From assembly GCF_029542205.1 (NCBI RefSeq), contig NZ_CP113783.1, positions 4,145,001 through 4,209,000 of the forward strand: DNA of 64,000 nt, given 5' to 3'. This DNA is from Pseudoxanthomonas sp. SE1 (GTDB lineage: Bacteria > Pseudomonadota > Gammaproteobacteria > Xanthomonadales > Xanthomonadaceae). How positions within the stretch are numbered: the stretch's first letter is position 1; each line of letters starts with the position of its first letter. The translations under genes were made by a program, and so were the position numbers. The notes beneath the pieces were generated by a model. The model was not told the DNA's origin and did not search any database. It worked only from the letters and a program-made list of their open reading frames with translations. Below are positions 3,471 through 6,196 of the stretch, piece after piece.

Positions 3471-3500
3471 TTTGTGCCGCACTAGGGGGCCCGAACACTC

Positions 3501-3549
3501 CCTTCTCCCCGCCTGCGGGGAGAAGGTGCCGAAGGCGGATGAGGGGCGA
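3501..3549. repeat. Dispersed intergenic repeat (CCTTCTCCC hairpin plus GGATGAGGGGC tail), copy 1
   Basis: A hairpin CCTTCTCCCC-GCCTGC-GGGGAGAAGG is followed by TGCCGAAGGCGGATGAGGGGC. The same layout recurs at 24487-24632 and, more diverged, at 40057-40229, always between genes. The rest of the 3471-3708 gap shows no further recognisable element. Confidence 0.7.
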
Positions 3550-3708
3550 ACGAAGTCCCGCTGCCTCTTGTCCAAGGGCACCCGACACCCGCGCGCGATA
3601 GCGCGTCGACCCTCGCCCAGCACGCGGGACGCGGCGGCGCACCGGCATCGCATCTGCCGTCACCCATTCCGTTTACCCTTGCCGCCTCGCTCCAAAGGTC
3701 GCCCCACG

Positions 3709-5430
3709 ATGACGTCTCCCCGCTCGTTGCTCATCCCCGCCCTGCTCGCCTCCCTGACGCTGCCCGCGTGCGCGGCCACACCGAAGGAGCGCGTCATGCC
3801 CATCGGCCAGGTGCAGGGTGAAAGCACGCGCAGCGCGCTCGACGGCCAGACCGTCACGGTCGAAGGCATCGTCACTGGGGCCTTCCCGGATCTGGGCGGC
3901 TTCTTCGTGCAGGACGCCGGTGACGGGAAGGCGGCGACCTCCGACGCCCTGTTCGTGGCCTTCGAGGAGGGCGCACCCGTGCCGGCCGTCACCGCAGGCG
4001 ATCGCGTCCGCGTGCGCGGCATCGTCGGGGAGCGCAAGGCAGGTGGAGACGACACGCTGACCGCACTCCACGCGCCTGTGATCCAGCCGCGCGGCAAAGG
4101 CAGCATCCCGCCCACCGTGCTGACCTCGGTACCCGGCGACTGGGAAGCGCTGGAAGGCATGCTCGTCCGCATCGACGCCCCGCTCACGCTCAGTGGCACG
4201 CATACGCTCGAGCGCTTCGGCGAACTGATCGCCAGCTTCGACGGCCGCCTCTGGCAGCCCAGCGAACTCGCCGCACCCGGCAGCGCCGAGGCCAAGCGCC
4301 TCGCCGCCGACAATGCGCGCCGCACCCTGCTGCTGGACGACGGCAGCGCCAAGCGCGATCCGTCCACCGTCTGGTACGTGAAGGACGGCCAGCCACTGCG
4401 CACCGGCACCGTGCTGACCGGCGTGCAGGGCATCGTCGAGCAGCGCCTGGGCAGTTGGCGCCTGCAGCTCACCGCCGCGCCGACGATCGCCGCGCCGGAA
4501 CGCCCGGCCACTCCGCAGGTCGCCGGCAATGTGCGCGTCGCCGCCTTCAATCTGGAAAACCTCTTCAACGGCGACGGCAAGGGCGGCGGCTTTCCCACCG
4601 AACGCGGTGCGAAGACGCCCGCGCAGCTGAAAGCCCAGCTAGCCAAGCTCACCGCCACGATCCGCGGCCTGAACCCCGACATCGCCGCGCTGATGGAGCT
4701 GGAGAACGACGGCTACGGCGCGGATTCCAGCCTGGCGCAGCTGGTCGCCGTGCTCAATGCGGGCGGCGGTACGTGGCGCTTCATCGACGCGAAGCAGGGC
4801 CCGGGCCCCGACACCATCCGTGTAGGCCTGATCTATCGCAGCGACCGCGTGAAGCCCACCGGCAAGCCTGCGACGTTGCAGGAAGGTCCGTTCGGCGAAC
4901 GCAGCCGCAGTCCGCTGGCACAGGCGTTCGTGCACGGCAGCGGCAAACCCTTCGTCGTGGTCGCCAACCACCTGAAGTCCAAGGGCTGCTCGGAAGCCAC
5001 CGGCCCGGACGCCGACCAGAAGGACGGTGCGGGCTGCTGGAATGCGCTGCGCCTGGATTCGGCCAAGCGTCTGGATGCGTGGTTGAAAGCCGACCCGACC
5101 CGCACGCGCACTGACCGCATCGTCATGCTCGGCGACTTCAACGCCTATGCGATGGAAGCGCCGGTGCGCTGGCTGCGCGACGACGCCGGCTGGGTGGATG
5201 CCTTCAAACAGGCCGGCGTGGAACAGCCCTACAGCTACGTCTACAGCGGCCTGACCGGCCGGCTCGACCACGCCCTGCTCAGCCCCTCACTGGCGAAGCA
5301 GCTGCGCGGCGCCGCCGAGTGGCACATCAATGCCGACGAACAGGATGCGCAGGGCTACGCCGACGGCGACCCCGCCGTGCCCTTCCGCAGCTCCGACCAC
5401 GATCCGCTGCTGCTCGGCTTCGATCTCTGA
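3709..5430 (+). CDS. ExeM/NucH-like endonuclease lipoprotein (endonuclease/exonuclease/phosphatase domain)
   Basis: Predicted envelope-anchored or extracellular DNase. The ATG at 3709 gives 573 residues with a lipoprotein signal ending in LPAC (Cys near residue 22), so the mature N-terminus is probably acylated. Residues about 30-270 hold OB-fold-like segments (VEGIVTGAFPDLGGFFVQD is typical of the NucH/YhcR type). The C-terminal half is an endonuclease/exonuclease/phosphatase domain starting AAFNLENLFN, with LMELENDGYG, VVANHLKSKGC, MLGDFNAY and a terminal SSDHDPLL, which supply the metal and catalytic Asn, Glu, Asp and His. The reading frame is open further upstream, but that part crosses a repeat and is not used. 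Roles in scavenging or degrading extracellular DNA are inferred from the family. Confidence 0.88.
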   Translation: MTSPRSLLIPALLASLTLPACAATPKERVMPIGQVQGESTRSALDGQTVTVEGIVTGAFPDLGGFFVQDAGDGKAATSDALFVAFEEGAPVPAVTAGDRVRVRGIVGERKAGGDDTLTALHAPVIQPRGKGSIPPTVLTSVPGDWEALEGMLVRIDAPLTLSGTHTLERFGELIASFDGRLWQPSELAAPGSAEAKRLAADNARRTLLLDDGSAKRDPSTVWYVKDGQPLRTGTVLTGVQGIVEQRLGSWRLQLTAAPTIAAPERPATPQVAGNVRVAAFNLENLFNGDGKGGGFPTERGAKTPAQLKAQLAKLTATIRGLNPDIAALMELENDGYGADSSLAQLVAVLNAGGGTWRFIDAKQGPGPDTIRVGLIYRSDRVKPTGKPATLQEGPFGERSRSPLAQAFVHGSGKPFVVVANHLKSKGCSEATGPDADQKDGAGCWNALRLDSAKRLDAWLKADPTRTRTDRIVMLGDFNAYAMEAPVRWLRDDAGWVDAFKQAGVEQPYSYVYSGLTGRLDHALLSPSLAKQLRGAAEWHINADEQDAQGYADGDPAVPFRSSDHDPLLLGFDL

Positions 5431-5460
5431 CGCAGACCCGGCGATGCGCCCGCAGGCCTC

Positions 5461-5736
5461 ACTCAAGCTTCGATGTGCGACATCGAAGTTCTGATGTGCG
5501 CTGACGAAGTTATTTTCTCCCCATCGACGAAGCATTCAGGTGCCTTGACGAAGCTTTGAAGTGAGTCGACGATGCATTCAGGTGAGATGCCGCACCTCGG
5601 AGGTGCGTCGTCGCTGTTCCATTGTGCGATGACAAGGCTTTGGGGTGAGATGACGAAGCTTTCTTGTGCCATGACGAACAAAAGAGCCTCGCCCGCAGAG
5701 TTCCGAGCTTCGACGTCGAAGAAAATTACTTCGTCA
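5461..5736. repeat. Array of about eleven degenerate 21-bp repeats with flanking inverted arms
   Basis: A 331-bp gap (5431-5761) holds no convincing gene. It is filled by units close to TGACGAAGCTTTCAGGTGAGA. The GACGAAG-like anchor starts at 5461, 5482, 5503, 5526, 5547, 5568, 5589, 5610, 5631, 5652 and 5673: steps of exactly 21 bp except one of 23. Base composition is more AT-rich than the neighbours. TGACGAAGTTATTTTC at 5502-5517 returns inverted at 5721-5736 with 15/16 matches, and CTTCGACGTCGAAG (5708-5721) is a perfect palindrome. Read on the minus strand the units give a weak seven-residue periodicity ([AS]PxSFV[ID]), but no start signal or family supports translation. Function unknown. 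Confidence 0.8.
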
Positions 5737-5761
5737 TGGCACAGAAGGACATCGGCGGCGT

Positions 5762-6196
5762 CTATGGGCCCGGCGCAACCCGGCCCTCGATGCGCGCAGC
5801 GACCGGCGAGCAGTAGGCCAGCGCCAGGCATGCGCCCCACGCCAGCGTCGACGCATCAGTCAGCATCGCCTCGATCGGCGACGATAACGTGGGGCCGGTC
5901 AGCAGATACAGGGGTAAGCAGAGCACGGTGATGCCCAGCGACAGCGCGCGACCCCAGCGCTTCAACAGGAAGAGGCCCGCGAACCCCACTACCGTGATGG
6001 CGAGTGCCGCCATACCCACCCCGGTCGCGATCCCTTCCTTCTTGAACAACCACGGCGGCGGCTCACTGGCATAGGCATCCGCCAGCGCCTGCGAGTAGCC
6101 ATCGGGCAGGAAGACCGTCGCGATGGCCGCGATGGAGAGGGTCGCGGAAGCGATCAGGAACAGACGGAAGCGAGCGATCGTCATGGGCGATGGCAT
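5762..6196 (-). CDS. Small integral membrane protein, unknown function
   Basis: 144 residues with four hydrophobic segments (about 10-30, 55-78, 84-104 and 116-136), so probably a four-helix inner-membrane protein. No enzymatic motif is seen. An alternative start is ATG at 6184 (MTIARF), which would remove four residues; neither has a strong Shine-Dalgarno sequence. It lies 21 bp downstream of the DUF1697 gene on the same strand, so it may be the last gene of that small operon. Not recognised as a named family. Confidence 0.7.
   Translation of the reverse strand: MPSPMTIARFRLFLIASATLSIAAIATVFLPDGYSQALADAYASEPPPWLFKKEGIATGVGMAALAITVVGFAGLFLLKRWGRALSLGITVLCLPLYLLTGPTLSSPIEAMLTDASTLAWGACLALAYCSPVAARIEGRVAPGP

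Follow-up and report, generated by a model that had tools for sequence, protein, structure and literature searches.

What is the repetitive element that fills the gap between two converging genes in Pseudoxanthomonas sp. SE1, and does its regular 21-bp step reflect protein binding, folding of the nucleic acid, a hidden gene or merely the way in which repeats copy themselves? The window analysed here is a stretch of 64,000 nucleotides (positions 4,145,001-4,209,000 of a single 4.23-Mb contig), in which a 331-bp gap houses a chromosomal, intergenic and apparently non-coding array of about a dozen imperfect 21-base units. The features on which the argument draws are as follows (window coordinates):

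3688..5430, plus strand: upstream gene, within ORF 3472-5430, with an endonuclease/exonuclease/phosphatase domain (PF03372; Pfam)
5463..5753, no strand: whole 21-bp array (inverted-pair search, autocorrelation, unit scan)
5467..5508, minus strand: two direct units of 21 nt each (PSSM scan)
5502..5533, no strand: left arm of a long-range closing stem (seven-species alignment, folding)
5532..5594, minus strand: three direct units at exact 21-bp steps (PSSM scan, Tandem Repeats Finder)
5591..5607, no strand: central 8-bp dyad CGCACCTC-G-GAGGTGCG (seven-species alignment)
5595..5615, minus strand: degenerate unit holding most of the central dyad (score 8.3, under the scan threshold)
5616..5678, minus strand: three direct units at exact 21-bp steps (PSSM scan, Tandem Repeats Finder)
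5707..5736, no strand: right arm of the long-range closing stem (seven-species alignment, folding)
5708..5721, no strand: perfect 14-bp palindrome CTTCGACGTCGAAG (pattern scan)
5709..5750, plus strand: two units in inverted orientation closing the array (inverted-pair search, PSSM scan)
5762..6196, minus strand: downstream gene of 144 aa, without a Pfam family (ORF list, Pfam)

Periodicity and layout of the array

The 21-bp periodicity is confirmed as genuine. Over positions 5461-5736 the identity at lag 21 is 0.51, with lag 42 as the runner-up, and none of 5000 dinucleotide shuffles attained this value, whether at lag 21 or elsewhere in the lag range 5-69; Tandem Repeats Finder, for its part, reported two period-21 pieces, at 5524-5586 and 5622-5678. 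The step proposed in a preliminary description of this DNA is thereby borne out by both checks, as is its statement that the region is AT-richer than its surroundings (GC of 0.52 in the array against 0.67 across the window). Its list of eleven GACGAAG anchors was too generous: the motif is exact at four (5503, 5526, 5547 and 5652), matches in six of seven letters at 5568 and 5673 and in five at 5482 and 5631, so that eight of the eleven reach at least five of seven, and those at 5461, 5589 and 5610 match fewer. Nor is the anchor step uniform, the interval 5503-5526 measuring 23. The element also reaches about 5753, beyond the end that had been given for it.

Units were placed by a position-weight (PSSM) scan with a score of at least 14, which returned eight minus-strand units (5467 to 5678) and two plus-strand units (5709-5750), with two lone matches over the 64 kb outside the array. 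A step of 44 leads from the pair at 5467..5508 to the unit that follows, a slip of 2 nt; the best local matches to the family profile are two of the three units in 5616..5678; and aligned stretches within the array share a mutual identity of 60-75%. The perfect 14-bp palindrome noticed earlier is present at 5708-5721, where it is the sole match in the window to C[TC]TCGNCGNCGA[AG]G, and the same 14-mer was found again in the arrays L029 and L151. The 16-bp arm reported to return inverted at 5721-5736 does so with one mismatch (15/16), and a longer inverted pair of 35 nt, 80% complementary, joins 5484-5518 with 5720-5754. At the centre of the array, five pairs of the dyad (GCACC/GGTGC) are invariant in all seven aligned species.

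A dispersed family with patchy presence

By blastn, related arrays were recovered in 9 of 61 genomes, all of the same genus (which supplies 37 of the 61, own genome included); the array of the window belongs to a family scattered among intergenic sites. Sets of 30 and 45 stretches were used to train two models based on sequence alone. The first, at E<=0.01, matched 13 of 38 genus genomes, among them G035, whose match (L161) was dropped since no array lies at the matched site; model R2, at E<=0.001, found arrays in 12 of the 38, and a thirteenth carrier, G014, with a shortened array, was found via blastn and synteny. In 15 genomes the endonuclease protein is at least 89% identical to the query, and all 13 carriers belong to this set; the next such protein stands at 78%, and five of the 38 genomes have no match to it. 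The 12 carrier genomes hold about 38 clusters (counted by eye), one to six in each, two of them being single matches without neighbouring units; L194 and L196 were dropped. A second array of the own genome lies at 644,481-644,761, between kdpC and kdpD, and in this genome the 14-mer palindrome pattern occurs at 28 places, against two per strand for a reversed control. The models show no match in the close relatives G019 and G028, which argues that the arrays are dispensable. A search of the open-access literature found no paper describing these 21-bp arrays, and to that extent the family seems undescribed.

The arrays recur at shared loci. With the flanking genes of 40 array loci called by a simple GC-position rule, five of the 40 arrays overlap a called ORF. 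Recurrent sites are the endonuclease gene (seven genomes) and kdpC-kdpD (nine genomes), and further ones lie near an aminopeptidase gene and in the ispH/phasin and pilU regions; the names kdpC, kdpD, aminopeptidase, ispH/phasin and pilU are what we presume these genes to be from our own recognition of their sequences, not a database assignment. The 144-aa gene adjoins the array in four of the six other genomes that carry one at the endonuclease locus. At the kdp locus, for which 33 genomes had a match, 9 of the 30 loci examined bear at least five units; the spacer is a bare 25 bp in G028 and G019, and spacers without scored units measure 219 bp in G030, G001 and G014 and 198 bp in G021. At the endonuclease locus an array is present in 7 of the 30 loci examined; 8 of the 15 close genomes are free of it there, six of them having REP-type inverted repeats (read by eye), while G030 has a different insert and G028 34 bp alone. 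In a two-gene tree, several other nodes of which are weak, array-free genomes group with carriers: G028 with G061 (support 87) and G019 with G021 (support 91). Shared loci, patchy presence and this grouping together imply that arrays were gained or lost more than once.

Several observations on these loci stand in their own right. In the endonuclease downstream gap of G020, G001, G029, G022, G019 and G027, a GTGGGAGCGACGTCAGTCGCGATG-type repeat, present as two inverted copies, stands in place of the array (by eye). At the kdp locus (L200, G000:C1, about 643505-644905), repeats stretch the kdpC-kdpD spacer to 651-1056 bp in nine species, inside an apparent operon; in several relatives this spacer is 4-25 bp. 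A short ORF of some 50 codons, seemingly conserved and containing a single hydrophobic segment (both read by eye), lies in the spacers of G030, G001 and G014 (L207, L210 and L206) and at the beginning of the G029 spacer (L203); it may encode a small membrane protein. The kdp spacers of G000 and G061, and of G022 and G027, are roughly 81-98% identical over long stretches, with kdpC fourfold sites at 79% and 75%, which suggests that the spacer was exchanged between species. Separately, at L110, the record JAHREJ010000008.1, titled Bacillus subtilis, encodes an endonuclease homolog of 62% identity that resembles those of Stenotrophomonas records; the assembly is possibly contaminated or mislabelled.

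Unit symmetry, substitution and the competing explanations

Across 28 array loci we placed 313 non-overlapping units, and 260 of the 283 spacings between them are exact multiples of 21, an upper estimate, as admission required an in-phase neighbour and the three unit classes were seeded by eye; the remaining spacings are off by -1 (1), +1 (14) or +2 (8). The autocorrelation evidence for phasing is independent of this selection rule. When the mean unit profile is circularly shifted against its reverse complement, the correlation at one of the shifts is r = 0.776, a value that none of 2000 null profiles reached (null maximum 0.37 +/- 0.08); by class, r is weak in A (0.318) and stands at 0.825 in B and 0.808 in C. 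The dyad axes of the mean profile lie 10.5 bp apart, and 10.5 bp is one turn of B-DNA. Idealised by eye, the unit is a 14-bp palindrome CTTCGNCGNCGAAG followed by a 7-bp spacer that is often AT-rich; exact idealised 14-mers are rare, occurring once each in 6 of 35 loci scanned, besides the one at 5708-5721 of the window.

Substitution between orthologous arrays follows this profile, falling as positional information rises (Spearman -0.87 over 15 ortholog pairs, which have species in common and are not independent). The relation persists when the tested position is excluded from unit selection (-0.87 and -0.89, 12 pairs), and when the profile is trained on other loci (-0.78 over 8 pairs, and -0.76 for the endonuclease locus alone); with that profile it is weak and not significant at the kdp locus alone (-0.32, p = 0.16). 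At threshold 15, changes were counted at 5 of 126 sites for one of the two strictest positions and at 8 of 127 for the other; position 1 had changed at 42 of 128. Overall, substitutions in the unit core are about half as frequent as those at the variable positions. Between-species identity of the arrays at the endonuclease locus is close to that of fourfold-degenerate codon sites, so any constraint would act on the core and not on the whole array.

We lean, tentatively, towards an array of symmetric sites, in phase with the helix, to which a DNA-binding protein would attach. Each 21-bp unit would be a degenerate palindrome; because the units are palindromes, a run of them would set a dyad axis every 10.5 bp, one turn apart, and place the units on the same side of the DNA. 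A dimeric protein could then bind successive units cooperatively and form a local nucleoprotein patch between genes, acting as an insulator, an anchor or a silencing/nucleation site. Whole-turn spacing, a dyad-symmetric site and a core less changed between orthologs, all of them found here, are marks of phased operator or nucleoprotein arrays, and the operator-like array phased at two helical turns that the preliminary description envisaged fares as the better reading, with the binding itself a prediction from sequence. Arrays in other genera that hold to the 21-bp period in different letters (below) also speak for it. Counting against a protein-site array are the failure of our analysis to find a binding protein, the rarity of exact 14-mers, the low self-symmetry of A-type units, the weak core effect at kdp, the overall identity near that of fourfold sites, the lack of model matches in G019 and G028 and the covariation of the closing stem (below), which favours a structural role instead.

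A serious rival, second in our estimation and on balance unlikely, holds that the arrays are a functionless satellite spread by copying, whose period and palindromes are maintained by slippage, template switching (quasi-palindrome correction) and recombination between strains. The patchy presence at the endonuclease and kdp loci (7 and 9 of 30), the grouping of array-free species with carriers, the REP-type repeats that occupy the same site in other species, the shortened array of G014 and the identity near fourfold sites all fit such an origin, and template switching could also yield the covariation of the closing stem. What a decaying satellite would not be expected to produce is the position-specific difference in substitution, although homogenisation towards a consensus could mimic part of it; the low copy number, one to six clusters per genome, likewise speaks against it.

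Third in order, and also a serious if improbable rival, is a structural element, acting either as RNA (a bidirectional 3' UTR hairpin, a terminator or an mRNA stabiliser) or as a DNA cruciform, in which the array's two ends would base-pair with each other around smaller hairpins. Folding speaks for it: single-sequence folding yields z = -4.2 and -4.0 on the two strands, and alignment folding scores better than each of 100 column shuffles on either strand (z -5.2 and -5.9), even if good folding is to be expected of every repeat with dyad symmetry. In seven species the closing stem, 27 pairs long, is 85% paired, with nine pairs changed on both sides, a number reached by none of 500 shuffles and set against one to three in slid controls, and the five pairs of the central hairpin, the same in all seven species, add to the case; the number of further pair types in the stem, on the other hand, was reached by 81 of 500 shuffles. 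Such covariation could arise from RNA, from a cruciform or from arm-to-arm copying by template switching. Changes in the closing stem show no clear G-U excess (13 G-U against 11 A-C); in the full 52-pair structure, which was predicted with G-U allowed, they number 39 and 15. When 14 ortholog pairs at six loci were pooled, predicted pairs were hardly better kept than slid ones: the Watson-Crick share of double changes was 0.43-0.44 against 0.37-0.38, the double-change rate 0.038 against 0.038-0.039, and one strand had 218 G-U and 185 A-C single changes, the other 186 and 220. A promoter/terminator scan found no such site, and an Rfam search of 5200-6000 at a permissive threshold gave four matches, all under the gathering score. 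Since G-U and A-C changes are nearly equal in the closing stem and pooled pairing constraint is slight, we do not prefer an RNA; both facts speak for DNA.

That the array is a minus-strand protein-coding repeat gene (with an FVISPES-like heptad) is very improbable, and this coding reading is largely refuted. A minus-strand ORF does span 5463-5840, and at least one frame is stop-free over most of each of ten arrays examined, L147 excepted; a stop-free 21-nt unit, though, keeps one frame open automatically. We take the array to be non-coding because the third codon position of the open frame changes least between species (0.13-0.14 against 0.19) and because slips of 1-2 nt occur within arrays and between species (in the alignment, G000 has +2 nt relative to the other six species and G023 +1 nt). 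Searched against 5.8 billion proteins, with matching limited to relatives sharing short exact words, the frame gave two matches, both of which run on as antisense of the neighbouring gene. Codon positions, indels and protein search thus make no conserved protein frame evident over the array, in keeping with the earlier view of it as gene-free.

Least credible of all are plasmid-type iterons or an integrated origin, likewise thought unlikely at the outset, for which direct 21-bp repeats in AT-richer DNA could be cited: blastn of the array against 72,556 plasmid and 50,697 phage records gave no match, nor did a viral-contig search, Pfam assigned families to five of nine neighbouring ORFs, none a replication initiator (the other four have no family), and several arrays lie per chromosome at unrelated genes.

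Relation to known repeats and to other genera

REP elements and BIMEs are short palindromic bacterial intergenic repeats, often clustered, which carry GTAG or CGTC tags and occur in the related Stenotrophomonas; the CGTC type is defined by the tag followed by a stem of 8-9 bp with a loop of 4-5 nt (PMC3733652). The arrays are likewise short palindromic intergenic repeats; however, their units tile head to tail at 21 bp, of ten arrays tested, eight lack the GTAG tag and two have it a single time, and a CGTC (or TGTC, CCTC) tag with a stem-loop, in the sense of that definition, is found at two places in the ten arrays (L146 and L158), with one mismatch each. Genomes hold one to six array clusters, against more than 100 REP elements. 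On tag, stem-loop and copy number alike, assignment of the array to the GTAG or CGTC REPs fails.

Iteron and centromere arrays of plasmids consist of direct repeats whose length is close to two helical turns and which are interpreted as sites of cooperative protein binding. The present arrays share that spacing; unlike them, they are chromosomal, multi-locus and highly degenerate, with units that are dyad-symmetric on average, and in contrast to iteron origins they have no replication-initiator family among the neighbours scanned here. The arrays resemble tandem-repeat loci or VNTRs in their head-to-tail units and in a length that differs between species, but they are only 60-75% self-identical, have a core less variable than the rest and carry a unit that recurs at unrelated loci.

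A period of 21 bp with different letters is present in two further genera of Xanthomonadaceae. A family-wide sample under stricter filters gave matches in 15 of 395 genomes and 4 of 54 genera. Among three extra-genus matches, L198 (lag-21 identity 0.47) and L197 (0.46) are 21-bp arrays in other letters, neither value being reached in 500 shuffles of its own; the third, L199 (G177), was dropped, as was a match outside the genus at L163 (G064), no array being found at either. Within the genus of L198, matches came from 5 of 17 genomes, one of which has two copies 82% alike, and six more loci are periodic at 21, 42 or 63 (L265, L261, L266, L263, L267 and L264); for L262, the stretch inspected for periodicity missed its match. 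L264 (G146) is itself a 42-nt array with period 42 only; a AAAATTTGTCCAACCG-like segment recurs in it, and its letters do not resemble those of the Pseudoxanthomonas units. Matches in the genus of L197 occur in 2 of 11 genomes, the second one weak.

These arrays may conceivably represent a seemingly undescribed class of intergenic chromosomal element in Xanthomonadaceae, built to a fixed two-turn plan of 21-bp dyad-symmetric units in genus-specific letters, that would nucleate a filament of a protein with a co-evolved recognition sequence; we regard this as doubtful, and with equal reserve note that such nucleation would make the arrays a chromosomal counterpart to plasmid centromere arrays. 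If the arrays bind protein, they would offer bacterial chromosomes natural docking platforms with many sites in helical phase, for which orthologous loci with an array, with a shortened array and without one exist as natural controls. If nothing binds them, slippage and template switching alone would keep a palindromic two-turn satellite in register across species, a warning against interpreting such arrays as operators.
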